Source of the DNA: Parapristionchus giblindavisi
Lineage: Eukaryota; Nematoda; Chromadorea; Rhabditida; Diplogasteridae
Direction: 5' to 3'
Assembly: GCA_943737045.1 (NCBI GenBank)
Contig: CALSFV010000226.1
Coordinates: 248,001 to 312,000 of the forward strand
DNA length: 64,000 nucleotides
Positions 10,249 through 61,712 of this stretch are shown piece after piece. How positions within the stretch are numbered: the stretch's first letter is position 1; every line of letters begins with the position of its first letter. The notes beneath the pieces were generated by a model. It did no database searches and was not told the DNA's origin. It saw nothing but the letters and a program-made list of their open reading frames with translations. The position numbers and the translations under genes were made by a program.

Positions 10249-10354
10249 GTGCATCAGAAGCCGAAGAATAAAACGATTAACTAGATTCCTTATGTTCTCA
10301 CTCTCAGCATACCAAAGCATGTATCTGATAAAGTATATTATTAAATTAATAATA

Positions 10355-10898
10355 CAGTACAGCCCGATCTCCTTTTGTACACGAGTAACACTGCGGCGCG
10401 CAGAGGCGCTCATTTGCGCTCATCATTTATTTCTGCGGGTACTGAATACTTTTCGATTCTCAAAGTCTTAATCATGAGTTTCCGTTATGAAAAGTTGTTT
10501 TAATGACTAAAAAAACAGAAACAAAATTTCTATTAATGAGAAAAAACAATTAAAATGCAAATCACACTAGTCCTAAAATGATGGGTACTGTAAATTTCGA
10601 AAAATGTCTTACGGCGATCGTGCGATCGATTCGTGATATTACAGTATACCTTTCCAGTAAATAATTACCCGTCGTTTTCGGACCAGTGTGATTTGTCTTT
10701 TAATTGCTTTTTCTCATTAATACAAATTTTGTTTCTGTTTTTTTAGTCATTAAAACAACTTTTCATAACGGAACCTCATGATTAAGACTTTGAGAATCGA
10801 AAAGTATTCAGTATCCGCAGAAATAAATGATGAGCGCAAATGAGCGCCTCTGCGCGCCGCAGTGTTACTCGTGTACAAAAGGAGATCGGGCTGTACTG
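10355..10898. mobile_element. fold-back MITE with TA duplication
   Basis: Long inverted arms (about 10355-10578 and 10679-10898) begin CAGTACAGCCCGATCTCC and end with the complement, flanked on both sides by TA. The TA duplication and CAGT start fit Tc1/mariner-type mobilisation. About 100 bp of unique sequence lies between the arms. No coding capacity. Confidence 0.75.
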
Positions 10899-12045
10899 TA
10901 CTAATACAAGATGTACAAGTAAAGGTTTGCATGCACTTTGAATGTAATTTTTTTTAAATGTATAGGTTAGCTAATAATGTGGCCAATGGTGTTCGGCCGC
11001 TACGTCTAATGTATTCCATAGAACACCATTCTCTACGATCCCCCTTATGGTATCACCTGTGCCCTTCCGTGCACTCACTCCGTTCACTGACAACAGCTGA
11101 AACGTTCTCAAACTATACAATATAAGAAATTCTAAATATTATCTACCTATAAATGTCATATCCTATAAATTATAAAATTTGTTGACAAATTTATCGCACC
11201 ATAGACTGGTTTTTAGCTATGCACAACTAGGTATCGAGTTGATTCTTATCGACATCAACACTAACAATTACATAGCTGCCCATCGCTTGCGTCCAAAAAA
11301 TAATCCCAATTCAAACGCCGGAATATTTTAACTTTCATCACATCTGCCCTGCAGTATCCCTAACATCACCACGAAGTGTAATGTTGGATAATTCGATGTT
11401 CTACTCATAATTTAATTGTTAATTTTATTATTTATCAAATCATTCGAGGTTCTTCCTTAGTGACCACCAGTATTGATCCATAACTTGCTTCGATCCTTCA
11501 AAGGATCCTGGCCAGGAAGTCCTCTCATCGCATAACAGATACGGATCAATGCATTCTGTCACACCTTTGAAAAGTTAGATTAAATTATATTAAATGTTCA
11601 ATACTGAAGATAAATGACAACGAGTATTCACACAATCACGTTTTCCTAGTGCAAATAATTTCTTCAAGTGTAACATTCGGACTGTTCGCACGAATATTTC
11701 TCTGACTTGATTACCCTATACCATGATATTATTTTTCTCTTACTTGATTACACCTTGATACTATATACCTTGGCATTTCTGCTATTTCCTCTTTGCGCTT
11801 CTCACGAACGATACTGTTGATCGTGAGAATAATGTTTCCATATATGTTGATTATTAGATAAAGTTCAATCTCACGTGGTATATCCGCATCAACACTGCAT
11901 ATAATGGTAATCCTTTTGTCGATGGTTTGTCGACATTTCATTCAAAGATCATGTCTAATACTGTCTGATATTATGCAAGAAGTGTACCGAAACAAGATTA
12001 GTACAATAACTGTAGTAAGATCGGATCGTATAAAATGTATTTTAA
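10899..12045. other. mostly featureless intergenic DNA with one possible orphan exon
   Basis: On the minus strand, 11440-11564 has an AG acceptor at its upstream edge, 40 open codons with a tryptophan-rich end (motif DQYWWSLRK) and a stop. The minus frame 11729-11941 is Lys/Ile-rich. I recognise neither and could not join them confidently. Nothing else is supported. Confidence 0.3.
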
Positions 12046-32854: not shown

Positions 32855-33345
32855 TATCGTACATCGATAATTCATTGGATCATGAATCGCCAGAAGCACT
32901 CTGAGCCACTCTGGTGATTCAACGGCGATTATGGCCGAATGAGGCATTTTCGTGCTCTCTCTTTCTTTTCATTATTTTTCTTTCACTCGAATCTAGTTAG
33001 TCCGCGAGAATTGCATTTTTATATTGTGTTTTTTCACAAAATCATCATTTTTAGTTATTAATAAATCGTTCCGATGATATCACAGAAAAGGAACCGGGAA
33101 ATCGGTAGCCCCCCAAAATGTTTTCATCGGAACGACTTATTAATAAATAAACATGATGATTTTGTGAATAACACAATATAAAAATGCGATTCTCGCGGAC
33201 TAACTAGATTAGAGTGAAAGAAAAATAATGAAAAGAAAGAGAGAGCACGAAAATGCCTCATTCGGCCATAATCGCCGTTGAATCACCAGAGTGGCTCAGA
33301 GTGCTTCTGGCGATTCATGATCCAATGAATTTTCGATGTACGATA
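32855..33345. mobile_element. fold-back MITE, ~490 bp
   Basis: Arms of about 220 bp (32855-33078 and 33124-33345) are near-perfect inverted copies, for example TTCATTGGATCATGAATCGC with GCGATTCATGATCCAATGAA. The ~45-bp centre contains a run of C. No coding capacity. It lies just downstream of the receptor gene's stop codon. Confidence 0.8.
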
Positions 33346-34107: not shown

Positions 34108-34519
34108 CTAAAAGGATAAGGATTAATGATCAAATTATAAACATAATAGACATGCAATTAATTGTACTCAAAGAACTGGACATTAGTAAATCAAAAGTAG
34201 TTAATATTAGTAGTATTCACTGTTTCGGCAATTAGGTTCTAAAAGATCAAAGATCAGCGTTCGCACTAACAACTATAATTTTGCCAGAATATATCGCGGG
34301 CTACTATTTAATGATCCAACGAACGGTGCATTAATATACATAGGTAGCCCAGCAATGAACTAACCCTCAAGTGACGCGAATACGGCGGGTTCGGTTTGTC
34401 GTCTGTGTCTGGTGACTCTCGTTGTGAGCATACCCGACTTGTTCTTTCCCATCTCAACGAATGATCGAGGACGAGAACGACGATTTCTTTAATTTGGATT
34501 TGTTTAAAAGAACACCCCG

Positions 34520-34595
34520 AACTATTTTTACTCTCCGCTCTGGCAACGATCAAAGAAAGCGAGAGAATGTGGCCAGAGCGGAGAGTTTCAAATTA
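34520..34595. mobile_element. palindromic MITE (CTCCGCTCTGGC family)
   Basis: ACTCTCCGCTCTGGCAACG pairs with GGCCAGAGCGGAGAGTTTC. Lies in a receptor intron. Confidence 0.7.
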
Positions 34596-34944
34596 TATCG
34601 GTATATTCCTTTAACAAGATTATTATACATAAAGAAACAACCAACATTTCAAAAGATTCAACTGACACAAGAAACAACGGTTCCGACGCGAAAATAATAG
34701 AAGAATAAATACATAATCCCATTTTTAAATTATTATTTGCATTTTAAATTTGAATATATCTAAAGTAGACTAACTTTCCGTGTCTGGACATCTTGATGGA
34801 CCATTTGTCTGGAGGCGATCGAATGAAGGGGAAGAGACGATGGGCAAAGGCCCATACTGAAGATTATCGTATGATTAATTAGAGATACGATAATATATTA
34901 TTTTATTTATTTTGTATTTGTTCTGATCCGATCTTTATATAATA

Positions 34945-35040
34945 AATATAATTTGAAACTCTCCGCTACGACAACGCTCTCTCGCTCTCTTCGTCTACGA
35001 GAGAGCGTTGCTAGAGCGGGAAATAAGCTTTGGGTGCATC
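34945..35040. mobile_element. palindromic MITE (CTCCGCTCTGGC family)
   Basis: AATTTGAAACTCTCCGCTAC, then an ACGCTCTCTCGCTC core with TACGAGAGAGCGTTGCTAG on the other arm. Lies in a receptor intron. Confidence 0.7.
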
Positions 35041-40358: not shown

Positions 40359-40414
40359 GGGGGCATGACAGAAGCGCAACGTCAAATGCGCAACAGCACC
40401 TCCTTCAGCGCAAG

Positions 40415-40728
40415 CGACAAAAGCGCAACGGGGCATATCTCGGTGGGGGATGACCGTACGGACCTCTGGATGGGTTTATCCGAACCAACTCGGTCTACGC
40501 TATTATGGTACAAGTTGATCTTTGATCTCTGACAGCGAAACGACAAAAGCGCAACGGGGCATATCTCGGTCGGGGATGACCGTACGGACCTCTGGATGGG
40601 TTTACCCTAACCCACTCGGTCTACGCTATTATGGTACAAGTTGATCTTTGATCTTTCACACCTAAACGACAAAAGCGCAACGGGGCATATCTCGGTCGGG
40701 GATGACCGTACAGACCTCTGGATGGGTT
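40415..40728 (+). repeat. ~125-127 bp minisatellite, left block
   Basis: Units start CGACAAAAGCGCAACGGGGC at 40415, 40540 and 40667. The third is cut by the Polinton insertion at 40728 and resumes at 55229. Each unit contains a GATCTTTGATC word. Confidence 0.9.
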
Positions 40729-40776
40729 AGTAGTATAGTTCTGTCTCACTTACATAAAAAACAGCTGCTTTTTGGA

Positions 40777-40873
40777 GGCGGGGCTTATGTCAGCCAATGA
40801 CCGTACAGCTTTAGGGGCGGAGCTTATGCCAGCCAATCACCGTCGGCCACGCCCCCTTTAGGGGCGGAGCTTA
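40777..40873. promoter_or_regulatory. GC-box/CCAAT-box cluster at the left Polinton end
   Basis: Within 150 bp of the terminus there are three GC boxes (GGAGGCGGGGC, then AGGGGCGGAGC twice) alternating with two GCCAAT motifs, plus GGCCACGCCCCC. The mirror copy is at 55083-55182, and further copies lie in the tandem units. The layout suggests a terminal promoter/enhancer or a replication-origin-like region. That role is inferred. Confidence 0.55.
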
Positions 40874-41037
40874 TCTATTTTTTATATTGATTTTTTGTAT
40901 CGATTTTTTATATTGATTTTTTGTAGATCAATCAAAATGATAATAATGATTGACAACTCTTATCAGTCAATCAATAAAATCATCCTAATCAATTACTACA
41001 GTAATCAACAAGTACAGTAATCAGTAATACAGTAAAC

Positions 41038-41082
41038 AACAAGTACAGTACAAGTACAGTACAAGTACAGTACAAGTACAGT
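41038..41082. repeat. 11-bp minisatellite AGTACAGTACA in left arm
   Basis: AAGTACAGTAC repeated about four times. The mirror copy at 54875-54920 contains the upstream breakpoint of the 1,661-bp tandem duplication. Confidence 0.8.
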
Positions 41083-41219
41083 AATCAAATACAGTAATTT
41101 GAAAAAAATCAATAATCATTACATTATCGATTTTTTGGTAGATCAATGATTCACATTATCGATTTTTGGTAGATCAATGATAAAATCAATCGAAATAATA
41201 AAATAAAGCAATTAACAAA

Positions 41220-43590
41220 GACTCACCACAGCAACACAACCGCACGGGGACTGACGAGACTAGAGACTAAACTAATTGTGGGCGGGGCCTCCTCCCATAC
41301 ATTGAAACTCACTCTGCTTCTCTATACCCTCTCTCTTTTACACTATCTCTACATCTAACTATTATAAATCATTTCGCAATTTACATATACCCGATTCTAC
41401 AGTATACCTCTCCTTCGTTTCTCTCGGAATCCCTCTCCCTATCCTCTAGACTAGAACAGAGGATTAGGATAAGGTCACCCTCTGCCTTCGTTTCTACCCC
41501 TCTCCCTACCCTTTTTGCGGTATCTATCTCTAATCCACTGATACATCTTACACCCTCTCTCTCTAAGCTCTTCTCTCTCTCCCTCTACTGAGTTGTTCCG
41601 AGCAATTCCGAGCGAAGCGAAGGGCAAAGCGAAGGAGCGAAGTCTCTCTCTATTGACTACAACAGAGGATTAGGATAAGGACAACCTCTGTCTTTGTTTC
41701 TTCCCCCTCTCCCTACCCTTTTTGCGGTATCTCTATCTAATCCAGCGATATATCTTGCACCCTATCTCTAAGCTCTTGTGCGTCTGTCAAGAGAGGAGTG
41801 AAGGATAAGGATAAGAAGAAGAAGAAGGAACCTTTCCCGCAAGAGAGAGTGGTGTAATTCGTTGTACTCAGTATAGAGAGTGAGATCCTTCTCATAATCC
41901 TTCTACAGAATGTAAAGATGGGGAGAGAAGCCGGCTGTGCCTAGCAACTCCTATACACAGATAAGAGGGAGAAGGATAAGTACAAGGTTGAGGAGAAGGC
42001 TCTTCTTCTACAGAAGATGATTAATTACTCTCATCCCTCTCTTCCTATTTACTAGTTTTACCATTCATTCCCATAACCAATCACAACAACAAGAGATATA
42101 AATATAGGTTTACGAATGATTAAATACAAGTTGATCGAGACACATCAAAACAACACATAATAACAACTCTCATGAAATATCTCATCTTCTTTAGCAGAAC
42201 ATATGTCGAACATATATATATTAAAGAAAACAATGAAAGGAAAGGGTAAGAGTATACGGTGATCAATATAGCTGTTACAATATCTCTCTTTAATTAATGC
42301 TCTTCATCCAATTACTACATCGCTATGACAATTACCAATCAAAGAGATAAGACATTCATTTTCTGTGAGCACATTCATAATGAAAAAAAAAAAGACCCAG
42401 CAGATAAATACTAAGATAAACCAAATGAAACCATGATTTAACTAGTGATTACGTAATTAGGTTATTCCAACTGAAATTAGTAGAGATGAAGTATGGTAAA
42501 CAAAAAGGAAAGCTGAGACGAGACCCTTCGTGTCTATCTCTGCCGAAAGGAATAAAGAGGAGGGAGACGCTACTATAAAAACCACATAATGAATAGAGAT
42601 CTTCAAAAGTTACAAATGAAACATGTGAATTGCATAACTAATAATTTAAGAGAGGTTTTAGTCTCTCTCTCACTCATCAATAGTGAGAGATATAACTATT
42701 CAAACCAGACATCTTGCGAGGCCTTGAATATATGGGCAGATGGTATGGCCAAGAGTCAATTACAACCTATGGTGATCAGTATGGCTATTACAATACACTA
42801 TTCTAATAAATTCTCCACTTACTACACTATCATGATAATAACAGTCAGAGAGATACAGCAGCCAAATCATTTATTCATTTTCTCTGATGACACCCATAAT
42901 AAACAAACCCATTAAATATAAACTGAGACAACCCTAGTAAAACCTTAATCTAACAAGTGATTACGTAATTTAGGATATTCCAACTGATATTAGTAGTGAT
43001 AAAGTTTGATATAAATACTCAAACCAGACAACTCGCGAGTCCGTGAATATTTGGCTAGATGGTATGGTAAAAGTCATCTCGTAATATGAGGAAGAGATTT
43101 TACACTTATATTCACAAAATGATTAATTACCCTTATCCCTCCCTACCTAGTCACTAGTTCTATCAACCATTCCCATATTCAATCACAACAACAAGAGATA
43201 TAAATATACGCTTATGAATGATTAAAGACAAGTTGATCATCACATTGAAACAAAGCATAAAATACAACCACTATTTCCTACTCATTAGTTCTAACATACA
43301 TTCCCATAATCAATCACAACAAAATCAAGAGATATAAATATAGTTTTATGAAAGATTAGAGACAAGCTCAATATATACAATGCCTCTCTCTCTCTATATT
43401 GGCACCTCCAAGCACAATAAGTATATAACATACAATATGAACTATTGTTATAATCGTCGTTAAAGTTGTAGACGAAATTATTTATGAATTGTTTTATCAA
43501 ATATATTACAATGATTCCAGAGGAATAAAATATTCTTACATTTACAATATATATGGTGAATTATGAAATGTGGTTTAAAAAGATAATAAT
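41220..43590. other. left-arm non-coding region with purine/pyrimidine-rich and short direct repeats
   Basis: CT/GA-rich blocks fill 41330-42060. CACAACAACAAGAGATATAA and close variants recur near 42085, 43185 and 43315, and GTGATTACGTAATT recurs near 42447 and 42957. The 108-codon frame 42589-42915 lies over these repeats and I do not call it a gene. The mirror region is 52366-54737. Confidence 0.5.
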
Positions 43591-43745
43591 AATAATATCA
43601 TGAATCATCAATATCCCTATTCGGGAATGACGGGAAGGTCATTAACGTTAGTAGTAGTGTTGATCCTAATGTAATACTACTACCGCGTTGAATAAAATTA
43701 AGCATATGATTTAATAATAAATTACCGGGTGATGTACTACCAAAT

Positions 43746-44112
43746 CTAAAGTGTATAAAAAAAATTCTGACCGGGAAATGACAGATCACGGTTGATGACG
43801 CTGAGAGTAATAAATGACATCTCGGCATTGTTGGGGATAGATTCAAATAATTTATTTACAGCATCATCTACTACCAATGGGAAGATGTATGCCGGCTCCT
43901 CTTCGCTGCTCAGGGTGAACATGGCCCTGACCATGTACGCTCCACTTCCTCGTGAGGTCACCGTGGTATCGTCGAGGCGATACTCTTCGTGGAGATCTGA
44001 AGAGATGATGAGAGAGAGAAATATTTGTGAACACATCATAAATACCTGGGTTGATCTCAGCCATGGAGGGTGATGAAGGGGATTGCGAAGGGGACATGCT
44101 AGATGTAGACAT
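43746..44112 (-). CDS. unrecognised divergent gene of the Polinton, left-arm copy
   Basis: Two exons (44046-44112 and 43746-43996) join in frame through a GT/AG intron, giving about 105 residues. The N-terminus is Ser/Pro-rich and disordered-looking (MSPSQSPSSPSM). The second exon holds YMVRAMFTLSSEE and AEMSFITLSVINRD. A third exon may follow toward 43598 (motif GSTSPGNLLLNHMLNFIQRG), but I found no in-phase donor for it. It is transcribed away from the polymerase-like gene across a ~175-bp gap, which would hold a shared promoter. The hydrophobic/polar pattern could derive from the very N-terminal domain of nematode Maverick polymerases. That is a guess. Confidence 0.5.
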
Positions 44113-44288
44113 GCTTGCACGTATAACTATAGTGGATATACCAAACGAATCACAACTGATGGTGTGAATGCGGGCTCTTGCAGTAGGATTAGTCGGGCGG
44201 GGCTTGACCTTATTGATGACGGACTAGTGACAGTCCAGTTAGCCAGTCTTACCAAGACCACTCATCACTCGTTGTTGTCTAATTTATC

Positions 44289-45437
44289 ATGGCTGGCACC
44301 TACCATAAAAGCTTCAAAGGTCTCGCAGCGTTCCCAAAGATCGAACAGGTACCTCTTAGCATGATTATCTTGCTACATCATACATCTCATTTAAGGATGC
44401 AATGGCACTAATGAGGGCCTGCCTATTTGGCAAGGTCGTGGCCGATCGCGACTACTATAGAGCAACAAGGCCTGGTATGAGGGTAGAGGACGATCATCTA
44501 ATTGATTCAGCAGATGAGCGGAAACAGTATAAAGAATTAAAAAATATACTAATAAAGGTATAATTAAGAAATGCATATAATTTTATATTTAGTGTTGTAA
44601 ATTTCTAGATTTCGAAAAGATCATCAACCCAGTTCAAACATACTGGGCATTTGGCTAACCAATTGAAAGTGAATATTAATTCTGGATTTGCTGATCTACC
44701 CCGAATTGCCGAGGCACTCGGAGAACCCTATCGAATTATCGTGTTCAGATATGTGAGTACTTCATTGACATTTTTTCTTAGAAAAAAAAAAATTAAAAAA
44801 CATTAAAGAATCCCGCTAGACGTATATGTGTACTCGAGTGGGCTAGTCCACGAGTAGGCACGAAGCCCATTCACCTCGTAACTGATGGTCATAACTGGAA
44901 TTGTCTAGCCAGTACCTTTGGTGTCTTCGAAGGAAAATTCTTTTGCAATTTCTGCTTGAAGACGTCTGCCAAAGTAACACATCATAGGTATTATACATGT
45001 TTATTATTCCGTTTTTTTTTTTTATAAATACTCTAAGATGCGAATATAAATGTGACGCTTGTGATCTACCTCTATTATTTGGAAGATGTATTGGTGGCCC
45101 TGTTAGGACATGCGAAGATTGCAATTTTACTTTCCTCTCGGAGGTAATCGGAATCTATACATTTATTTGTTTATTAATCTCTATTTCCAGAGTTGCTATG
45201 AGAGACATAAGCATGACCATCAGCATGGAAATAAAGTACATCTATCTCGATGTGCTAGAATCAAATCATGCCCCGAGTAAGTGTTATTTTCATTTTTATC
45301 GTCTGAAAATGGGTTTCTTTAGATGTCTCGGGTGCTACAGAACCAGCAATGGTAAACATGTCACTTGTACCAAAAAGCAATTGGGTGTTCCAGCCCTCGG
45401 ACAGCCCTCCGCAACCCTCCTCGGTCAGCCGCTATAA
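44289..45437 (+). CDS. truncated protein-primed DNA polymerase B N-terminal region (Polinton-type), left-arm copy
   Basis: Seven exons (44289-44348, 44396-44557, 44609-44752, 44809-44987, 45038-45143, 45191-45276, 45323-45437) join in frame with GT/AG introns into 283 codons. Landmarks in order are DAMALMRACLFGKVVADRDYY, a LANQLKVNINSGFADLPRI stretch, YRIIVFRY, and a dense zinc cluster with CNFC, CDAC, CEDC, CYERH and CLGC. This order is what I know from the segment upstream of the exonuclease domain in nematode Maverick family-B polymerases. The protein then ends in a low-complexity tail (LGQPSATLLGQPL) and stop. No exonuclease (DIE-like) or polymerase (YGDTDS-like) motif follows, so it cannot synthesise DNA. 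It might still bind DNA or the terminal protein. Confidence 0.7.
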
Positions 45438-45476
45438 GAAGACCTAAAATGCACATATAAATCATTATCACATTCA

Positions 45477-45722
45477 TTGTATGTTATGAACAGTCGTATG
45501 TATAAACTCTATTATGATCTTAAAGAGCATACTGCGTTCACATCAGCAGCACCTATAGCTTCAAAAGCCAGAGTACCGATAGAAAAAGTTGACAAAGCTA
45601 TAGAAGATCAAGATGCATATATACTTTTCAGAAAGTATAGACAAAACTATCCACGGTCAAAGACTCGGGGGTTATCCGTGGGACAGACAATACAGGCTGA
45701 TTTGGCCGATTTCCAAAAGTAG
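45477..45722 (+). CDS. truncated Polinton integrase, N-terminal domain, left-arm copy
   Basis: An 81-codon frame 40 bp after the polymerase fragment, on the same strand. It contains LYYDLKEHTAF, a linker with AYILFRKYRQNYPRSKT, and ends QTIQADLADFQK then TAG. The pattern (LYYD...AFTS..., then DxDAY-L-rkyr--fPR, then QADLADM) is the start of Maverick/Polinton integrases, where the QADL motif begins the DDE catalytic core. The frame stops exactly there, so the catalytic domain is gone. Confidence 0.68.
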   Translation: MYVMNSRMYKLYYDLKEHTAFTSAAPIASKARVPIEKVDKAIEDQDAYILFRKYRQNYPRSKTRGLSVGQTIQADLADFQK

Positions 45723-47924
45723 AAACGTTACAACGACTTGTATTCGTATTGTTAACAGTACTAAAAAAATCTAGAAATCAACCACTAATGCTGCATTTGT
45801 GATCTAGAAACAATACATATTGGAAATCTTAATAGTAGACATACGCTAAGATATTTATTAATTTGTATAATAGTACTAACGCTGTGGCACACAACTATGT
45901 TTCTGTTCATTTCATTGGACTAGCATGAGATATAAACTGAATAGCTAAAGAATGTAGATCTTGCAGTACACACCCTATCGATATTGGATGATCGGTGGTG
46001 GTTGATATGATGGGTTTATACACTTTCCATTATGTAAATGCACCTATACAAAAACATAGTCCGAACCTGTTGTCCCGTTTGTTTTTCTATTATTTTGAGA
46101 CGGACGCTGATGAAATACATGTTTAATACATGTATGTGACACACTGTCTATAGGTGAAATCATGGTCTTCTATAGTGTTTTCGTTGTCAAAGTCTTTTCA
46201 GGTAACGAACGTCCAAACCTCACTTATTGATATAGTGTACATAGTTATTATGTTTCATGAAGGGTGAGTTATAAAATAATTTAGGGTACTTCATAGTTGA
46301 ATAATGTTTCTTTTTGAAGGTCGGCTAAATCAAATAATTTCGTTGTGAGGACATGTAGATAGCAAAAATCATTCTACATACCGTGCACTATTTCATTCAA
46401 CTTATTGTCCGCTAAAATCATGAATGAATAACACTAAATGTTAATTTCTATAACCGGTAAAAAGCACGTTTTTGAATGGTAAAGATATCGAAAATGTAAG
46501 TGGGAAACCTCCCGGTACGGTACTTTATAATTACTGAGCTACACTGATGCCTCTCGAATCTAATAGTAGTAAACAGAAATCAACATTGTTGGACCCACGA
46601 GATAGTATATTACACCAAATCAGCCTTTGATACTTCATTACCACGAGTAACACTTTCACAATGTAGGACATCTTAACTGTTCCAATCAACACAAACAATC
46701 ATGACAATCTGTATAATTATTATTTGATCACATACTGATTTATGTAATATAGCATAATCATGAACCATTTAAATGTCGAACTGTGAACTAATTTATGCAG
46801 TCAAATGGATGTATATCACGCAAGAGTGTACAGAACCGCCCAACTCTCCGTAATGATATGATGAAATGCATATCATTGATCAAACACGACATTAACGCGA
46901 TCATACATGAAAATACCAAAATCTTGTTTAAGTTTACATTTATCCATGGTAATTCACACATCTAAGGCGCTTCTAAAATGATTTATCGAATAATATGTAG
47001 ATAGATTTGCTTTGCAAGGAGTTATATGTATATGTTTTCATGCGTTTGCCACAGATATACCTACTATTTCATTGTTCAAACTAGCATGAGGCTATTATAA
47101 AAACCGACGACGTTGAAATGGTTATGCTTAAAACCAATCATGTTCAAATTACAAACTTAAAGAATGTCAAAATCTATCTGGTGTGGTTGAATACTCAGTA
47201 AAATGTATAAGTTTAGATCTATTATAATACAACATCATAGTCTATCATTCATATTCTCAATGCAATGTGTTACAAATTTATCTTATTCTTGGAGAATCAT
47301 GAGGTGTTTACTCGAACAACTATGTTGTCTCATTAATAATTCAAACAATATGCATTTCTATTATAAGAAATGGCCCAAAATAAGGATTTATAGATTCTAA
47401 GTAATGGTCACTTGAAAATCGTCATGTTGTAAGTTCCGGGTACAACCAACCAGTTTCCGATATACTATTAACTTGAACAGGACCTTCCAACAGATTACCT
47501 AGAACATCACGACCGCATAGCTCAATCATCACAACTTCAGTTTATTTTCAGAAAATTAGACACTATTGAAATGGTTAATTTATGGTAGAAAGTGAGAAAG
47601 ACTTCCGGTTTATTAAACAACACCAATCTGCTTACAAAAGCAATCTACAATCGTTTACTCCAACACCGGATAGCCAGAGCAGAATTTCAAGAACAGGTTC
47701 TTCAAGAATACAAAAATATAACAGCCAGATTAGTGATTTCTACGCTAGAAACACACCCCAGTAGTTAACTGACTGCATATTTAAAAGCTGCATGAGTAGT
47801 GATAATACAGAAATGGATTCTTTATGTATGGCTAAGATTATCATATTTTTGAATAATTCATATTATAACCATGAATTAATAAACAAAATAAAAATACAGG
47901 TGTGTCATTGATTTTGTAATACAG
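45723..47924. other. inner part of left Polinton arm, no recognised gene
   Basis: AT-rich, with two short frames at 47203-47400 (65 codons) and 47582-47764 (60 codons, Ser/Gln/Arg-rich). Neither resembles a known Polinton gene. Both recur exactly in the right arm (48555-48752 and 48191-48373). CATGCAT-free and without internal tandem repeats. Confidence 0.45.
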
Positions 47925-48030
47925 CTATACATTACACACTAATGAACACCTTTCAATACTTTCAATAGTTGCCTTATTTATTGATGAGGGGAGAAATATC
48001 CACAAATCTTACAATTATTCGATCAATAGT
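47925..48030. other. 106-bp unique spacer at the palindrome centre
   Basis: The arms stop matching at ...TTTTGTAATACAG (47924) and CTGTATTACAAAA... (48031). The AT-rich sequence between is not self-complementary at length. It marks the turn-around point of the presumed snap-back. Confidence 0.85.
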
Positions 48031-50232
48031 CTGTATTACAAAATCAATGACACACCTGTATTTTTATTTTGTTTATTAATTCATGGTTATAATATGAATT
48101 ATTCAAAAATATGATAATCTTAGCCATACATAAAGAATCCATTTCTGTATTATCACTACTCATGCAGCTTTTAAATATGCAGTCAGTTAACTACTGGGGT
48201 GTGTTTCTAGCGTAGAAATCACTAATCTGGCTGTTATATTTTTGTATTCTTGAAGAACCTGTTCTTGAAATTCTGCTCTGGCTATCCGGTGTTGGAGTAA
48301 ACGATTGTAGATTGCTTTTGTAAGCAGATTGGTGTTGTTTAATAAACCGGAAGTCTTTCTCACTTTCTACCATAAATTAACCATTTCAATAGTGTCTAAT
48401 TTTCTGAAAATAAACTGAAGTTGTGATGATTGAGCTATGCGGTCGTGATGTTCTAGGTAATCTGTTGGAAGGTCCTGTTCAAGTTAATAGTATATCGGAA
48501 ACTGGTTGGTTGTACCCGGAACTTACAACATGACGATTTTCAAGTGACCATTACTTAGAATCTATAAATCCTTATTTTGGGCCATTTCTTATAATAGAAA
48601 TGCATATTGTTTGAATTATTAATGAGACAACATAGTTGTTCGAGTAAACACCTCATGATTCTCCAAGAATAAGATAAATTTGTAACACATTGCATTGAGA
48701 ATATGAATGATAGACTATGATGTTGTATTATAATAGATCTAAACTTATACATTTTACTGAGTATTCAACCACACCAGATAGATTTTGACATTCTTTAAGT
48801 TTGTAATTTGAACATGATTGGTTTTAAGCATAACCATTTCAACGTCGTCGGTTTTTATAATAGCCTCATGCTAGTTTGAACAATGAAATAGTAGGTATAT
48901 CTGTGGCAAACGCATGAAAACATATACATATAACTCCTTGCAAAGCAAATCTATCTACATATTATTCGATAAATCATTTTAGAAGCGCCTTAGATGTGTG
49001 AATTACCATGGATAAATGTAAACTTAAACAAGATTTTGGTATTTTCATGTATGATCGCGTTAATGTCGTGTTTGATCAATGATATGCATTTCATCATATC
49101 ATTACGGAGAGTTGGGCGGTTCTGTACACTCTTGCGTGATATACATCCATTTGACTGCATAAATTAGTTCACAGTTCGACATTTAAATGGTTCATGATTA
49201 TGCTATATTACATAAATCAGTATGTGATCAAATAATAATTATACAGATTGTCATGATTGTTTGTGTTGATTGGAACAGTTAAGATGTCCTACATTGTGAA
49301 AGTGTTACTCGTGGTAATGAAGTATCAAAGGCTGATTTGGTGTAATATACTATCTCGTGGGTCCAACAATGTTGATTTCTGTTTACTACTATTAGATTCG
49401 AGAGGCATCAGTGTAGCTCAGTAATTATAAAGTACCGTACCGGGAGGTTTCCCACTTACATTTTCGATATCTTTACCATTCAAAAACGTGCTTTTTACCG
49501 GTTATAGAAATTAACATTTAGTGTTATTCATTCATGATTTTAGCGGACAATAAGTTGAATGAAATAGTGCACGGTATGTAGAATGATTTTTGCTATCTAC
49601 ATGTCCTCACAACGAAATTATTTGATTTAGCCGACCTTCAAAAAGAAACATTATTCAACTATGAAGTACCCTAAATTATTTTATAACTCACCCTTCATGA
49701 AACATAATAACTATGTACACTATATCAATAAGTGAGGTTTGGACGTTCGTTACCTGAAAAGACTTTGACAACGAAAACACTATAGAAGACCATGATTTCA
49801 CCTATAGACAGTGTGTCACATACATGTATTAAACATGTATTTCATCAGCGTCCGTCTCAAAATAATAGAAAAACAAACGGGACAACAGGTTCGGACTATG
49901 TTTTTGTATAGGTGCATTTACATAATGGAAAGTGTATAAACCCATCATATCAACCACCACCGATCATCCAATATCGATAGGGTGTGTACTGCAAGATCTA
50001 CATTCTTTAGCTATTCAGTTTATATCTCATGCTAGTCCAATGAAATGAACAGAAACATAGTTGTGTGCCACAGCGTTAGTACTATTATACAAATTAATAA
50101 ATATCTTAGCGTATGTCTACTATTAAGATTTCCAATATGTATTGTTTCTAGATCACAAATGCAGCATTAGTGGTTGATTTCTAGATTTTTTTAGTACTGT
50201 TAACAATACGAATACAAGTCGTTGTAACGTTT
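48031..50232. other. inner part of right Polinton arm (mirror of 45723-47924)
   Basis: Reverse complement of the left inner arm, with coordinates summing to 95955. No recognised gene. Confidence 0.5.
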
Positions 50233-50478
50233 CTACTTTTGGAAATCGGCCAAATCAGCCTGTATTGTCTGTCCCACGGATAACCCCCGAGTCTTTGACC
50301 GTGGATAGTTTTGTCTATACTTTCTGAAAAGTATATATGCATCTTGATCTTCTATAGCTTTGTCAACTTTTTCTATCGGTACTCTGGCTTTTGAAGCTAT
50401 AGGTGCTGCTGATGTGAACGCAGTATGCTCTTTAAGATCATAATAGAGTTTATACATACGACTGTTCATAACATACAA
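50233..50478 (-). CDS. truncated Polinton integrase, N-terminal domain, right-arm copy
   Basis: Translation identical to 45477-45722. The same premature end after QADLADFQK shows that the truncation was present before or during arm duplication. Confidence 0.68.
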   Translation of the reverse strand: MYVMNSRMYKLYYDLKEHTAFTSAAPIASKARVPIEKVDKAIEDQDAYILFRKYRQNYPRSKTRGLSVGQTIQADLADFQK

Positions 50479-50517
50479 TGAATGTGATAATGATTTATAT
50501 GTGCATTTTAGGTCTTC

Positions 50518-51667
50518 TTATAGCGGCTGACCGAGGAGGGTTGCGGAGGGCTGTCCGAGGGCTGGAACACCCAATTGCTTTTTGGTACAAGTGACATGTT
50601 TACCATTGCTGGTTCTGTAGCACCCGAGACATCTAAAGAAACCCATTTTCAGACGATAAAAATGAAAATAACACTTACTCGGGGCATGATTTGATTCTAG
50701 CACATCGAGATAGATGTACTTTATTTCCATGCTGATGGTCATGCTTATGTCTCTCATAGCAACTCTGGAAATAGAGATTAATAAACAAATAAATGTATAG
50801 ATTCCGATTACCTCCGAGAGGAAAGTAAAATTGCAATCTTCGCATGTCCTAACAGGGCCACCAATACATCTTCCAAATAATAGAGGTAGATCACAAGCGT
50901 CACATTTATATTCGCATCTTAGAGTATTTATAAAAAAAAAAAACGGAATAATAAACATGTATAATACCTATGATGTGTTACTTTGGCAGACGTCTTCAAG
51001 CAGAAATTGCAAAAGAATTTTCCTTCGAAGACACCAAAGGTACTGGCTAGACAATTCCAGTTATGACCATCAGTTACGAGGTGAATGGGCTTCGTGCCTA
51101 CTCGTGGACTAGCCCACTCGAGTACACATATACGTCTAGCGGGATTCTTTAATGTTTTTTAATTTTTTTTTTTTCTAAGAAAAAATGTCAATGAAGTACT
51201 CACATATCTGAACACGATAATTCGATAGGGTTCTCCGAGTGCCTCGGCAATTCGGGGTAGATCAGCAAATCCAGAATTAATATTCACTTTCAATTGGTTA
51301 GCCAAATGCCCAGTATGTTTGAACTGGGTTGATGATCTTTTCGAAATCTAGAAATTTACAACACTAAATATAAAATTATATGCATTTCTTAATTATACCT
51401 TTATTAGTATATTTTTTAATTCTTTATACTGTTTCCGCTCATCTGCTGAATCAATTAGATGATCGTCCTCTACCCTCATACCAGGCCTTGTTGCTCTATA
51501 GTAGTCGCGATCGGCCACGACCTTGCCAAATAGGCAGGCCCTCATTAGTGCCATTGCATCCTTAAATGAGATGTATGATGTAGCAAGATAATCATGCTAA
51601 GAGGTACCTGTTCGATCTTTGGGAACGCTGCGAGACCTTTGAAGCTTTTATGGTAGGTGCCAGCCAT
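50518..51667 (-). CDS. truncated Polinton DNA polymerase B N-terminal region, right-arm copy
   Basis: Mirror of 44289-45437 with the same seven-exon structure. The visible frames have identical translations. The span is one base longer because an intronic T run has 12 instead of 11 bases, which leaves the coding sequence intact. Confidence 0.7.
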
Positions 51668-51843
51668 GATAAATTAGACAACAACGAGTGATGAGTGGTC
51701 TTGGTAAGACTGGCTAACTGGACTGTCACTAGTCCGTCATCAATAAGGTCAAGCCCCGCCCGACTAATCCTACTGCAAGAGCCCGCATTCACACCATCAG
51801 TTGTGATTCGTTTGGTATATCCACTATAGTTATACGTGCAAGC

Positions 51844-52210
51844 ATGTCTACATCTAGCATGTCCCCTTCGCAATCCCCTTCATCACCCTCCATGGCTGAG
51901 ATCAACCCAGGTATTTATGATGTGTTCACAAATATTTCTCTCTCTCATCATCTCTTCAGATCTCCACGAAGAGTATCGCCTCGACGATACCACGGTGACC
52001 TCACGAGGAAGTGGAGCGTACATGGTCAGGGCCATGTTCACCCTGAGCAGCGAAGAGGAGCCGGCATACATCTTCCCATTGGTAGTAGATGATGCTGTAA
52101 ATAAATTATTTGAATCTATCCCCAACAATGCCGAGATGTCATTTATTACTCTCAGCGTCATCAACCGTGATCTGTCATTTCCCGGTCAGAATTTTTTTTA
52201 TACACTTTAG
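51844..52210 (+). CDS. unrecognised divergent gene of the Polinton, right-arm copy
   Basis: Mirror of 43746-44112, with exons 51844-51910 and 51960-52210. Points outward, toward the right end of the element. Confidence 0.5.
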
Positions 52211-52365
52211 ATTTGGTAGTACATCACCCGGTAATTTATTATTAAATCATATGCTTAATTTTATTCAACGCGGTAGTAGTATTACATTAGGATCAACACT
52301 ACTACTAACGTTAATGACCTTCCCGTCATTCCCGAATAGGGATATTGATGATTCATGATATTATT

Positions 52366-54737
52366 ATTATTATCTTTTTAAACCACATTTCATAATTCAC
52401 CATATATATTGTAAATGTAAGAATATTTTATTCCTCTGGAATCATTGTAATATATTTGATAAAACAATTCATAAATAATTTCGTCTACAACTTTAACGAC
52501 GATTATAACAATAGTTCATATTGTATGTTATATACTTATTGTGCTTGGAGGTGCCAATATAGAGAGAGAGAGGCATTGTATATATTGAGCTTGTCTCTAA
52601 TCTTTCATAAAACTATATTTATATCTCTTGATTTTGTTGTGATTGATTATGGGAATGTATGTTAGAACTAATGAGTAGGAAATAGTGGTTGTATTTTATG
52701 CTTTGTTTCAATGTGATGATCAACTTGTCTTTAATCATTCATAAGCGTATATTTATATCTCTTGTTGTTGTGATTGAATATGGGAATGGTTGATAGAACT
52801 AGTGACTAGGTAGGGAGGGATAAGGGTAATTAATCATTTTGTGAATATAAGTGTAAAATCTCTTCCTCATATTACGAGATGACTTTTACCATACCATCTA
52901 GCCAAATATTCACGGACTCGCGAGTTGTCTGGTTTGAGTATTTATATCAAACTTTATCACTACTAATATCAGTTGGAATATCCTAAATTACGTAATCACT
53001 TGTTAGATTAAGGTTTTACTAGGGTTGTCTCAGTTTATATTTAATGGGTTTGTTTATTATGGGTGTCATCAGAGAAAATGAATAAATGATTTGGCTGCTG
53101 TATCTCTCTGACTGTTATTATCATGATAGTGTAGTAAGTGGAGAATTTATTAGAATAGTGTATTGTAATAGCCATACTGATCACCATAGGTTGTAATTGA
53201 CTCTTGGCCATACCATCTGCCCATATATTCAAGGCCTCGCAAGATGTCTGGTTTGAATAGTTATATCTCTCACTATTGATGAGTGAGAGAGAGACTAAAA
53301 CCTCTCTTAAATTATTAGTTATGCAATTCACATGTTTCATTTGTAACTTTTGAAGATCTCTATTCATTATGTGGTTTTTATAGTAGCGTCTCCCTCCTCT
53401 TTATTCCTTTCGGCAGAGATAGACACGAAGGGTCTCGTCTCAGCTTTCCTTTTTGTTTACCATACTTCATCTCTACTAATTTCAGTTGGAATAACCTAAT
53501 TACGTAATCACTAGTTAAATCATGGTTTCATTTGGTTTATCTTAGTATTTATCTGCTGGGTCTTTTTTTTTTTTCATTATGAATGTGCTCACAGAAAATG
53601 AATGTCTTATCTCTTTGATTGGTAATTGTCATAGCGATGTAGTAATTGGATGAAGAGCATTAATTAAAGAGAGATATTGTAACAGCTATATTGATCACCG
53701 TATACTCTTACCCTTTCCTTTCATTGTTTTCTTTAATATATATATGTTCGACATATGTTCTGCTAAAGAAGATGAGATATTTCATGAGAGTTGTTATTAT
53801 GTGTTGTTTTGATGTGTCTCGATCAACTTGTATTTAATCATTCGTAAACCTATATTTATATCTCTTGTTGTTGTGATTGGTTATGGGAATGAATGGTAAA
53901 ACTAGTAAATAGGAAGAGAGGGATGAGAGTAATTAATCATCTTCTGTAGAAGAAGAGCCTTCTCCTCAACCTTGTACTTATCCTTCTCCCTCTTATCTGT
54001 GTATAGGAGTTGCTAGGCACAGCCGGCTTCTCTCCCCATCTTTACATTCTGTAGAAGGATTATGAGAAGGATCTCACTCTCTATACTGAGTACAACGAAT
54101 TACACCACTCTCTCTTGCGGGAAAGGTTCCTTCTTCTTCTTCTTATCCTTATCCTTCACTCCTCTCTTGACAGACGCACAAGAGCTTAGAGATAGGGTGC
54201 AAGATATATCGCTGGATTAGATAGAGATACCGCAAAAAGGGTAGGGAGAGGGGGAAGAAACAAAGACAGAGGTTGTCCTTATCCTAATCCTCTGTTGTAG
54301 TCAATAGAGAGAGACTTCGCTCCTTCGCTTTGCCCTTCGCTTCGCTCGGAATTGCTCGGAACAACTCAGTAGAGGGAGAGAGAGAAGAGCTTAGAGAGAG
54401 AGGGTGTAAGATGTATCAGTGGATTAGAGATAGATACCGCAAAAAGGGTAGGGAGAGGGGTAGAAACGAAGGCAGAGGGTGACCTTATCCTAATCCTCTG
54501 TTCTAGTCTAGAGGATAGGGAGAGGGATTCCGAGAGAAACGAAGGAGAGGTATACTGTAGAATCGGGTATATGTAAATTGCGAAATGATTTATAATAGTT
54601 AGATGTAGAGATAGTGTAAAAGAGAGAGGGTATAGAGAAGCAGAGTGAGTTTCAATGTATGGGAGGAGGCCCCGCCCACAATTAGTTTAGTCTCTAGTCT
54701 CGTCAGTCCCCGTGCGGTTGTGTTGCTGTGGTGAGTC
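52366..54737. other. right-arm non-coding region (mirror of 41220-43590)
   Basis: Same CT/GA-rich blocks and short repeats in reverse complement. One T-run near 53572 is one base longer than its partner. Confidence 0.5.
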
Positions 54738-54880
54738 TTTGTTAATTGCTTTATTTTATTATTTCGATTGATTTTATCATTGATCTACCAAAAATCGATA
54801 ATGTGAATCATTGATCTACCAAAAAATCGATAATGTAATGATTATTGATTTTTTTCAAATTACTGTATTTGATTACTGTA

Positions 54881-57800
54881 CTTGTACTGTACTTGTACTG
54901 TACTTGTACTGTACTTGTTGTTTACTGTATTACTGATTACTGTACTTGTTGATTACTGTAGTAATTGATTAGGATGATTTTATTGATTGACTGATAAGAG
55001 TTGTCAATCATTATTATCATTTTGATTGATCTACAAAAAATCAATATAAAAAATCGATACAAAAAATCAATATAAAAAATAGATAAGCTCCGCCCCTAAA
55101 GGGGGCGTGGCCGACGGTGATTGGCTGGCATAAGCTCCGCCCCTAAAGCTGTACGGTCATTGGCTGACATAAGCCCCGCCTCCAAAAAGCAGCTGTTTTT
55201 TATGTAAGTGAGACAGAACTATACTACTTGGGTTTATCCGAACCAACTCGGTCTACGCTATTATGGTACAAGTTGATCTTTGATCTCTGACAGCGAAACG
55301 ACAAAAGCGCAACGGGGCATATCTCGGTCGGGGATGACCGTACGGACCTCTGGATGGGTTTACCCTAACCCACTCGGTCTACGCTATTATGGTACAAGTT
55401 GATCTTTGATCTTTCACACCTAAACGACAAAAGCGCAACAGGGCATATCTCGGTCGGGGATGACCGTACAGACCTCTGGATGGGTTTACCCTAACCCACT
55501 CGGTCTACGCTATTATGGTACAAGTTGATCTTTGATCTCTGACAGCGAAATGACAAAAGCGCAACAGGGCATATCTCAGTCATGGATGATCGTACAGACT
55601 TCTGACTGGGTTTATTCGAACTCTCTCTATCTGGGTAATCATTCTACCAATTGATCGTTGATCTCTGACAGCGAAACGACAAAAGCGCAACAGGGCATAT
55701 CTCGGTCGGGGATGACCGTACAGACCTCTGGATGGGTTTACCCTAACCCACTCGGTCTACGCTATTATGGTACAAGTTGATCTTTGATCTCTCACACAGA
55801 AACGACAAAAGCGCAAGGGCCATATGAGTGCGCTTTTGAGAAAATCATAGTCAGACCCTAGACGCGAAAAAAAATAAATTTTTGGGGGGATCAGGGCTCT
55901 CAAGGGTGCTGTTTACGATGGCCTTGTGCATTCTGCACGTCGAGCCGCCACCGTTGAGGCCAGACGCAGCCTCGTTGAAATAGTGTTTTCGCGTTGAAAA
56001 GTGGTTTCTCCTCAACCGATGGAGCTAAAATTATCAAACTATGCCCCAAGGAGCAGAATTTTATGGCGATCATGCCTGTGCAATTCATTTTGTTCTTGAA
56101 AATGTTGATAATTTTAAAAATGCAATTTCTCTCATAGGCAAAAGGGTATTAGGCGACCTACACAAGTCAGACCGGAATTATTTTTGCGCTATTTTTTCCT
56201 CACCTGCCACAATGCTCTCTGCCACCACCACACTCTCTTGCCTCCACTTTAACGGCAAAATGGCTACATTGAAAGTTGATTTTTTCGAAAGTCGAGGCGC
56301 AAATTGGGTGAATTTTTTTCAATGTGATACTGAAGCCCTTCCGATCCGATCTGTGAAGGTTGCGTAATACACTTTTGCCTTTGAGGGAAATACAATCTTG
56401 AAAATTATGGACATGTTCATGAAAAGGGGTATAGGTAGATAATTTTAGCACCATCGTGTGAAAAGAAACGACTTTTCAAATGATTTTTTAGTCGAATCTC
56501 TCGCAAGATCGCTCAAATATCGATCGGGGATAATCGTTTAACTTGTACTGTACTTGTACTGTACTTGTACTGTACTTGTTGTTTACTGTATTACTGATTA
56601 CTGTACTTGTTGATTACTGTAGTAATTGATTAGGATGATTTTATTGATTGACTGATAAGAGTTGTCAATCATTATTATCATTTTGATTGATCTACAAAAA
56701 ATCAATATAAAAAATCGATACAAAAAATCAATATAAAAAATAGATAAGCTCCGCCCCTAAAGGGGGCGTGGCCGACGGTGATTGGCTGGCATAAGCTCCG
56801 CCCCTAAAGCTGTACGGTCATTGGCTGACATAAGCCCCGCCTCCAAAAAGCAGCTGTTTTTTATGTAAGTGAGACAGAACTATACTACTTGGGTTTATCC
56901 GAACCAACTCGGTCTACGCTATTATGGTACAAGTTGATCTTTGATCTCTGACAGCGAAACGACAAAAGCGCAACGGGGCATATCTCGGTCGGGGATGACC
57001 GTACGGACCTCTGGATGGGTTTACCCTAACCCACTCGGTCTACGCTATTATGGTACAAGTTGATCTTTGATCTTTCACACCTAAACGACAAAAGCGCAAC
57101 AGGGCATATCTCGGTCGGGGATGACCGTACAGACCTCTGGATGGGTTTACCCTAACCCACTCGGTCTACGCTATTATGGTACAAGTTGATCTTTGATCTC
57201 TGACAGCGAAATGACAAAAGCGCAACAGGGCATATCTCAGTCATGGATGATCGTACAGACTTCTGACTGGGTTTATTCGAACTCTCTCTATCTGGGTAAT
57301 CATTCTACCAATTGATCGTTGATCTCTGACAGCGAAACGACAAAAGCGCAACAGGGCATATCTCGGTCGGGGATGACCGTACAGACCTCTGGATGGGTTT
57401 ACCCTAACCCACTCGGTCTACGCTATTATGGTACAAGTTGATCTTTGATCTCTCACACAGAAACGACAAAAGCGCAAGGGCCATATGAGTGCGCTTTTGA
57501 GAAAATCATAGTCAGACCCTAGACGCGAAAAAAAATAAATTTTTGGGGGGATCAGGGCTCTCAAGGGTGCTGTTTACGATGGCCTTGTGCATTCTGCACG
57601 TCGAGCCGCCACCGTTGAGGCCAGACGCAGCCTCGTTGAAATAGTGTTTTCGCGTTGAAAAGTGGTTTCTCCTCAACCGATGGAGCTAAAATTATCAAAC
57701 TATGCCCCAAGGAGCAGAATTTTATGGCGATCATGCCTGTGCAATTCATTTTGTTCTTGAAAATGTTGATAATTTTAAAAATGCAATTTCTCTCATAGGC

Positions 57801-59863
57801 AAAAGGGTATTAGGCGACCTACACAAGTCAGACCGGAATTATTTTTGCGCTATTTTTTCCTCACCTGCCACAATGCTCTCTGCCACCACCACACTCTCTT
57901 GCCTCCACTTTAACGGCAAAATGGCTACATTGAAAGTTGATTTTTTCGAAAGTCGAGGCGCAAATTGGGTGAATTTTTTTCAATGTGATACTGAAGCCCT
58001 TCCGATCCGATCTGTGAAGGTTGCGTAATACACTTTTGCCTTTGAGGGAAATACAATCTTGAAAATTATGGACATGTTCATGAAAAGGGGTATAGGTAGA
58101 TAATTTTAGCACCATCGTGTGAAAAGAAACGACTTTTCAAATGATTTTTTAGTCGAATCTCTCGCAAGATCGCTCAAATATCGATCGGGGATAATCGTTT
58201 AACTTGTACTGTACTTGTACTGTACTTGTACTGTACTTGTTGTTTACTGTATTACTGATTACTGTACTTGTTGATTACTGTAGTAATTGATTAGGATGAT
58301 TTTATTGATTGACTGATAAGAGTTGTCAATCATTATTATCATTTTGATTGATCTACAAAAAATCAATATAAAAAATCGATACAAAAAATCAATATAAAAA
58401 ATAGATAAGCTCCGCCCCTAAAGGGGGCGTGGCCGACGGTGATTGGCTGGCATAAGCTCCGCCCCTAAAGCTGTACGGTCATTGGCTGACATAAGCCCCG
58501 CCTCCAAAAAGCAGCTGTTTTTTATGTAAGTGAGACAGAACTATACTACTTGGGTTTATCCGAACCAACTCGGTCTACGCTATTATGGTACAAGTTGATC
58601 TTTGATCTCTGACAGCGAAACGACAAAAGCGCAACGGGGCATATCTCGGTCGGGGATGACCGTACGGACCTCTGGATGGGTTTACCCTAACCCACTCGGT
58701 CTACGCTATTATGGTACAAGTTGATCTTTGATCTTTCACACCTAAACGACAAAAGCGCAACAGGGCATATCTCGGTCGGGGATGACCGTACAGACCTCTG
58801 GATGGGTTTACCCTAACCCACTCGGTCTACGCTATTATGGTACAAGTTGATCTTTGATCTCTGACAGCGAAATGACAAAAGCGCAACAGGGCATATCTCA
58901 GTCATGGATGATCGTACAGACTTCTGACTGGGTTTATTCGAACTCTCTCTATCTGGGTAATCATTCTACCAATTGATCGTTGATCTCTGACAGCGAAACG
59001 ACAAAAGCGCAACAGGGCATATCTCGGTCGGGGATGACCGTACAGACCTCTGGATGGGTTTACCCTAACCCACTCGGTCTACGCTATTATGGTACAAGTT
59101 GATCTTTGATCTCTCACACAGAAACGACAAAAGCGCAAGGGCCATATGAGTGCGCTTTTGAGAAAATCATAGTCAGACCCTAGACGCGAAAAAAAATAAA
59201 TTTTTGGGGGGATCAGGGCTCTCAAGGGTGCTGTTTACGATGGCCTTGTGCATTCTGCACGTCGAGCCGCCACCGTTGAGGCCAGACGCAGCCTCGTTGA
59301 AATAGTGTTTTCGCGTTGAAAAGTGGTTTCTCCTCAACCGATGGAGCTAAAATTATCAAACTATGCCCCAAGGAGCAGAATTTTATGGCGATCATGCCTG
59401 TGCAATTCATTTTGTTCTTGAAAATGTTGATAATTTTAAAAATGCAATTTCTCTCATAGGCAAAAGGGTATTAGGCGACCTACACAAGTCAGACCGGAAT
59501 TATTTTTGCGCTATTTTTTCCTCACCTGCCACAATGCTCTCTGCCACCACCACACTCTCTTGCCTCCACTTTAACGGCAAAATGGCTACATTGAAAGTTG
59601 ATTTTTTCGAAAGTCGAGGCGCAAATTGGGTGAATTTTTTTCAATGTGATACTGAAGCCCTTCCGATCCGATCTGTGAAGGTTGCGTAATACACTTTTGC
59701 CTTTGAGGGAAATACAATCTTGAAAATTATGGACATGTTCATGAAAAGGGGTATAGGTAGATAATTTTAGCACCATCGTGTGAAAAGAAACGACTTTTCA
59801 AATGATTTTTTAGTCGAATCTCTCGCAAGATCGCTCAAATATCGATCGGGGATAATCGTTTAA
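54881..59863 (+). repeat. three tandem 1,661-bp units joining a Polinton end to its flank
   Basis: Units are 54881-56541, 56542-58202 and 58203-59863, and all frames in them repeat with identical translations. Each unit has 348 bp of the Polinton right end (GC/CCAAT cluster to ACTACT), the TGGGTT duplication, about 585 bp of minisatellite and about 725 bp of fold-back-like outer-element sequence. Junctions read GTTTAA|CTTGTACTG, and after the third unit the flank continues GTTTAAAAAAATTC. The duplication therefore came after the Polinton insertion. The 108- and 84-codon frames inside lie on opposite arms of a short inverted repeat and are not called genes. Confidence 0.92.
55083..55182. promoter_or_regulatory. 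GC-box/CCAAT-box cluster at the right Polinton end
   Basis: Mirror of 40777-40873, repeated at the same relative place in the next two tandem units (about 56744-56843 and 58405-58504). Confidence 0.5.
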
Positions 59864-61584: not shown

Positions 61585-61675
61585 ACCCAAGTTGATTTTA
61601 AACTCTCCGCTCTGGTCACACTCTCTCGCTTTCTTTGTCTAAGAGAGAGAGTATAGCCAGAGCGGAGAGTAAAAT
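61585..61675. mobile_element. palindromic MITE (CTCCGCTCTGGC family) in receptor intron
   Basis: TTTTAAACTCTCCGCTCTGG pairs with CCAGAGCGGAGAGTAAAA around a CTTTCTTTGTCTAAG centre. Confidence 0.75.
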
Positions 61676-61712
61676 TACCTTGGATGAGCTTTTAAACTAC
61701 AGATAAACTCAC

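Follow-up and report, generated by a model that had tools for sequence, protein, structure and literature searches.

Polintons, also called Mavericks, are usually pictured as virus-like DNA that is replicated by protein priming, and the form in which they replicate has to be inferred. Adenoviruses, whose linear DNA is likewise protein primed, can yield palindromic defective genomes, mirror-image molecules that are neither integrated nor a lineage. Snapback subgenomes with a mirror-image layout are also known from adeno-associated virus (PMC8235507; statements from this and the other cited papers refer to the excerpts used). Intact vertebrate Mavericks measure 12.7–24.6 kb, have inverted repeats of 46–1,447 bp, and are marked by 6-bp duplications and an (AGT)2//(ACT)2 motif (PMC8097293). 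Here, we analyzed a stretch of 64,000 nucleotides from the nematode Parapristionchus giblindavisi (hereafter the window), which contains at positions 40729–55228 a Polinton-like element in the form of one giant palindrome. We put at roughly 62% the reading that this element is a copy of a non-autonomous Polinton satellite family whose mobile form is a giant palindrome with snap-back copying.

Like Mavericks (PMC8097293), the palindromes have (AGT)2//(ACT)2 ends, 6-bp duplications, and lengths of 13–18 kb; unlike Mavericks, their inverted repeats nearly fill the element, with no unique centre, and we found no whole Polinton gene in the window element. They resemble the adeno-associated virus snapback genomes in being mirror-image derivatives of a larger viral genome; those, however, belong to an unrelated virus and are described as products of replication and encapsidation errors (PMC8235507), whereas the palindromes here are integrated, are inherited as a family, and have a single centre in common. 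A study of cryptophyte polinton-like viruses allowed inverted repeats as long as 8 kb in its filter, and words beginning with "palindrom-" are absent from its main text, in the excerpt used (PMC12220804). In the open-licence literature that we searched, which leaves most subscription papers uncovered, none of the titles listed described palindromic Polintons, and no paper in that literature combined "polinton" with "snap-back".

The left arm of the window palindrome (40729–47924, plus strand, 7,196 bp) and the right arm (48031–55228, minus strand, 7,198 bp) are reverse complements of each other with no substitutions. Their differences are two 1-base length changes in A-runs at 42383 and 44782, and the entire 14.5 kb aligned to its own reverse complement in a single alignment at 99.6% identity. 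A 106-nt spacer (47925–48030) lies between them. The termini read AGTAGTATAG on the left and CTATACTACT on the right, the target-site duplication TGGGTT stands on each side (40723–40728 and 55229–55234), and just beyond the ends mirror agreement was 21/100 positions. Self-comparison therefore bore out the claim of an earlier note on this DNA that the element is a palindrome with ~7.2-kb arms and a 106-bp spacer, and its AGT-type termini and 6-bp duplication were likewise as that note had described. The insertion site lies inside a tandem array with a 126-bp period that occupies both flanks (40406–40728 and 55229–55816); with TGGGTT as the point at which the right flank restarts, the duplication can be defined despite this array. 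A AGTAGTATAG site elsewhere in the window, at 10037, was compared with the arm and had no similarity to it.

The window is part of contig C226 of an assembly of 251 Mb in 703 contigs, which we refer to by C-numbers. The cuticle-collagen domain PF01484, typical of nematodes, had at least 150 matches in this assembly (150 of 250 candidates scored) and none in 14 control genomes, in keeping with a nematode host. Searching this assembly with the centre of the element (47600–48030) gave matches on at least 22 other contigs, many of them in mirrored pairs (among the best 40 of 52 candidates), and we inspected the loci on 10 of those 22. Left and right pieces were mirror images in eight of the 10 (C29, C212, C231, C37, C363, C103, C397, and C383); the arms of C383 were less alike, at 88.5% across the inner 3.8 kb, and C397 and C37 carry one-arm insertions. 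The two loci outside these eight were C561, which is cut off by the contig end, and C205, which has two copies of the centre. We judged 14 further loci by the midpoints of their mirrored matches, using hand-picked pairs and not every match. Midpoints spread over 0–16 bp in nine of the 14 (C3, C80, C110, C150, C237, C28, C281, C36, and C655b), shifts were larger in C655a (160 bp), C203 (416 bp), and C114 (8 kb), and C93 and C12 offered a single mirrored pair each. Centre matches are also carried by C56, C13, C1, C211, and C273. Palindrome sizes ranged from 13,078 to 17,966 bp (mean 15,742 bp, n = 8, the value for C37 including a 1-kb insertion). A unique centre of ~2.6–4.4 kb in the other copies was considered and dropped, since that stretch is itself palindromic. 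As a separate observation, runs of three to five units of TTAGGC, the nematode telomere repeat, occur in seven of the eight palindromic relatives (not in C363) and in C205; they sit in pieces L021–L026, L028–L031, L034, and L038–L041.

The ends of each copy, set by the AGTAGTATAG motif, provide the evidence on how these palindromes came to lie where they do. In all eight copies that have both ends (C561 and C397 have a left end only and are outside this count), mirror symmetry ends at (AGT)2//(ACT)2 termini, and perfect 6-bp duplications enclose the element. The eight duplications are all distinct from one another (TGGGTT in the window, and GACCTG, GTCGCC, AGGGGG, GTCATT, TTGGTC, CTCGTG, and ATCATG), and the outer 100 bp were unmirrored in every copy (21–37/100 positions). 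In C29, the motif is repeated farther in at both ends, and this inner pair is without a 6-bp duplication. Because the mirror stops at the termini and each copy has its own 6-bp duplication, we conclude that the palindromes themselves are the integrating form. For the same reason, assembly fold-back was rejected as an explanation of the whole family, the distinct duplications and unmirrored flanks excluding it along with formation in place. The earlier note had offered integration as a palindrome and formation in situ as two possibilities; the duplications in 8/8 copies favor the former, and the shared centre described below speaks against the latter.

Two side observations concern the insertion sites. 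Other inverted repeats, unequal and ~95% identical, flank C212 and, farther out, C103, as if these two copies were nested in another element (read from pieces L023/L024 and L038/L039). Tandem repeats were present in or beside three of the eight copies (the 126-bp array in the window, and direct matches between left and right flanks in C29 and C37), perhaps reflecting a target preference.

The palindromes share not only their form but their turning point. A spacer of ~124 nt is common to C29, C212, C231, C363, C103, C397, and C37 and is present in part in C383; its length was 123–125 nt in C212, C363, and C231. The full centre occurs at no fewer than 21 places in the genome at 88–100% identity to C29 (among the best 40 of 1,473 candidates), two of these being in C205. 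Flanking the spacer on each side is an inverted ~80-bp unit, which is also found alone elsewhere in the genome and which, by eye in one solitary copy (L045), is itself a small hairpin. A reading of the element as a lone, freshly made palindromised Polinton was not supported: the other inspected members are palindromic around a different, shared centre, and with eight of 10 relatives palindromic and that centre at so many places, we rejected a one-off event.

The window copy does not have the shared centre. The sequence of its 106-nt spacer is found in C29 on both sides of the palindrome, continuing the part that matches the window arm, and occurs in other copies as well; in C29 coordinates, 311413–314131 are missing from the window copy, a gap of ~2.7 kb. 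By eye, there was no microhomology at the join between the 106-nt spacer and the other arm. Judged from this comparison, the 106-nt spacer is the edge of the old centre, left by a later, asymmetric loss. One side of the centre is also partly lost in C383 (by eye). The earlier note had called for a search for other copies with the same 106-bp spacer, and among the best 40 of 52 candidates no other place spanned the turn of the window copy. One possible sister copy, C561, whose contig stops 2 bases before the window's turn at a different insertion site, may be a second such copy. Independently of the element, the window contains diverged copies (75–83%) of the ~80-bp hairpin repeat, which resembles a miniature inverted-repeat transposable element, including those at 61593–61677, 34519–34596, and 2323–2415; a further copy of this dispersed repeat lies at 34948–35019.

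The ends of the element tie it to Polintons that carry genes. Its first 200 bp are 100% identical to C312:328897–329096, and the match continues at 100% to 330149, ~1,252 bp in total with one 1-base length difference; the matching outer end is 40729–41980 on the plus strand, with its mirror copy, by arm symmetry, at 53977–55228 on the minus strand. For the other end of C312, identity to the window end is 98% in the first 200 bp and 85% in the next 0.9 kb. C312 spans 17,966 bp between its ends and contains a DNA_pol_B_2 exon (2.3e-11); an rve integrase domain (1.3e-8) lies in an open frame of 279 aa. Relatives of this frame numbered 166 proteins; among the 120 listed, the top identity was 57%, nearly all had rve, and many had a chromodomain. 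The assignment to a Polinton-type element, made in the earlier note, is thus supported by the ends and duplication type and by the ends held in common with an element bearing PolB and integrase, and C312, one end of which is ~100% identical over ~1.25 kb, is a relative of the kind for which that note had called. Polinton C312 and palindrome C29 are of equal length (17,966 bp), probably by chance.

Two further loci, C583 and C66, have similar ends and a polymerase match and are less alike in the outermost ~80 bp. Near one end only, C312, C583, and C66 each carry a piece 75–84% like 43609–45361 of the window (plus strand; mirror at 50594–52347), and near the other end, on the opposite strand, a piece 87% identical to 45437–45753 (plus strand; mirror at 50202–50518), which in C312 lies immediately 5' of the integrase frame. 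In the palindrome arm, the two pieces are adjacent and run in the same direction, which makes the arm a composite of both Polinton ends. The family B polymerase gene, present in C312, had no match within the window element (all 22 candidates scored), and for the rve integrase the window element offered only the ~317-bp stretch, which resembles sequence just ahead of the integrase frame in C312. No domain scored above the cut-off in a Pfam scan of eight of the 28 open frames in the arm and flank. The inner core (45760–48030, plus strand) is common to other palindromes in genome searches with its parts; the parts 45760–46900 (best 40 of 513 candidates) and 47600–48030 (best 40 of 52 candidates) had no match in C312, C583, or C66. 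With only gene pieces, no Pfam match, and a core not matched in these three Polintons, we read the window element as a non-autonomous Polinton derivative, which keeps the ends of an autonomous-type element and, as far as examined, only pieces of its genes.

We had also considered the frame at 45438–45722 as the start of an integrase; Pfam and solved structures gave no support, and its link to integrase comes from DNA similarity to C312, where the neighboring frame is rve. Elsewhere in the assembly, C384:94463–96397 has PolB matches and an open frame of 1,207 residues, the longest listed, with one of three rows counting a stop; this locus is possibly another, better kept Polinton family.

We compared arms within and between copies over a 0.66-kb inner segment, with gaps excluded and matches shorter than ~550 bp dropped (the right arm of C205 is therefore missing). 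Arms of the same copy were 100% identical in eight of nine copies, C383 standing at 89.7%, and the median identity of arms between copies was 91.8% (181 pairs). Over whole arms, substitutions numbered 0 in ~7.2 kb in the window, 3 in 8,757 bp in C29, 2 in 6,476 bp in C231, and 2 in 7,699 bp in C103. C212 had no substitutions over ~8.65 kb, with four gap runs; C37 had 5 in ~4.7 kb and none in a further 2.0 kb, and C397 had 5 in the ~4.7 kb compared. Leaving aside the subgroup to which the window copy belongs, each copy has two equal arms that differ from those of other copies, and we conclude that the arms within a copy are homogenized. Two copies depart from this uniformity along the arm. C363 had 76 substitutions in 7,349 bp, of which 2 lie in the inner ~5 kb and 74 in the outer 2.5 kb, and C383 had 214 in its inner 3,558 bp, 2 of them in the innermost ~0.7 kb and 212 beyond; such a pattern suggests that one arm of each copy was swapped with another lineage, or that conversion acted near the centre only. 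Both arms of the window copy carry the C312-type end at ~100%, which is expected if a swap was copied to both arms before insertion.

These observations can be ordered into a proposed life cycle. The founder would have been a Polinton derivative with two inverted ~80-bp hairpin repeats ~124 nt apart, and the first palindrome would have arisen when DNA made single-stranded by replication folded back at these repeats and was copied. From then on, Polintons that have these ends, C312 being an example, would supply in trans the protein-primed polymerase that replicates such palindromes and the integrase that inserts them. In each cycle, the displaced strand could snap back on itself, giving a hairpin ~6.5–9 kb long with a ~124-nt loop, and one arm could be copied or corrected against the other within this hairpin, yielding identical arms. 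Recombination or template switching may exchange ends between palindromes and active Polintons, in which case the swap would land in both arms, and the centre may be lost asymmetrically after insertion, for example, in the window copy and C383. The mirror form, the 6-bp duplications, the ends shared with a Polinton, and the shared centre are established by the structure of the copies, and the family has the mirror-image layout around a short loop that characterizes a snap-back genome. Snap-back copying is a plausible origin of both the palindromes and their equal arms.

Several points weigh against this reading. No snap-back intermediate was seen, and gene conversion on the chromosome also gives arm identity. 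The window, C29, and C561 are mutually identical in the 0.66-kb segment, with the left arm of C383 nearly so, and the equal arms of this group tell us little. The central match and outer divergence of C363 and C383 also fit conversion driven from the centre. C12 has, besides its mirrored pair, matches that fit no single mirror, C205 with its two centre copies is not read as a simple palindrome, and C212 is bordered by a separate pair of inverted repeats.

Palindromes on Y chromosomes undergo gene conversion from arm to arm, and the present palindromes could have integrated as such and owe the identity of their arms to the same chromosomal process. The arms of C363 and C383 are most alike near the centre (2 substitutions there against 74 and 212 farther out), as such conversion would predict; C29, C212, C231, C103, and the window, however, are equal along the whole compared arm (0–3 substitutions), and the C312-type end on both window arms would need conversion between loci followed by conversion between arms. 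We regard this explanation as unlikely, though it is the foremost rival. Rather less probable is a fold-back introduced by assembly at 48030/48031, where the window copy turns, in a real family member that retains a longer centre. The absence of substitutions between the window arms would fit, as would a turn seen nowhere else (best 40 of 52 candidates), the break in C561 2 bases short of the same point, where assemblers may stop at palindromes, and an exact 1,661-bp triplication next to the element. Yet a fold-back alone cannot restore the right flank and the 6-bp duplication, eight inspected relatives of similar form assemble elsewhere, and asymmetric centre loss recurs in C383 (by eye).

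Short inverted repeats can fold back and yield large chromosomal palindromes (PMC7999016; PMC3315005), and they could in principle have seeded each palindrome independently, by inverted duplication in place after a normal Polinton had inserted. Those palindromes, unlike the ones described here, are chromosomal and non-mobile. The shared centre at its many places refutes an in-place origin for the family, the core is shared as well, and perfect duplications enclose whole palindromes in 8/8 copies, which leaves this explanation hardly any probability. We give just as little credence to a Foldback or Mutator-type transposon in place of a Polinton derivative. Foldback elements do have long, variable inverted repeats, and those of Tm1, from root-knot nematodes, are composite, as are the arms here (PMC3169594). 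The duplications of Tm1, which its authors class as Mutator/Foldback, are, however, mostly 9 bp (PMC3169594), and a duplication of 8–10 bp was found in none of our eight copies, all of which have 6 bp; the (AGT)2//(ACT)2 ends, moreover, are common to an element with PolB and integrase.

Returning to the snap-back satellite family, we hold tentatively, at somewhat less than even odds, a wider view in which it is a heritable germ-line snap-back lineage that parasitizes its Polinton, with rewriting of arms, renewal of ends, and possibly silencing by hairpin RNA; as the arms carry pieces of helper genes, they could make a hairpin RNA that silences the helper. If true, a defective-interfering lineage would be resident in a germ line. 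Arms that are equal within and unequal between copies would be a natural record of both strands between insertions. The family would offer a handle on strand displacement as a possible mode of Polinton replication, on possible packaging by length, with the eight gene-poor palindromes measured staying at 13–18 kb, and on whether virus-like transposons carry satellites of their own. For annotators, giant palindromes in assemblies are not necessarily fold-back errors.

Two features of the window lie beside these subjects. The triplication at the right end of the element (54880–59862) consists of three exact 1,661-bp tandem units, in each of which 349 bp come from the element end and 1,312 bp from the flank; this array, which the earlier note does not mention, may have been amplified recently or be an error of assembly. 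Shorter palindromes of ~0.5 kb, with self-complementarity of 89–91%, are present at 10347–10906 and 32855–33345.

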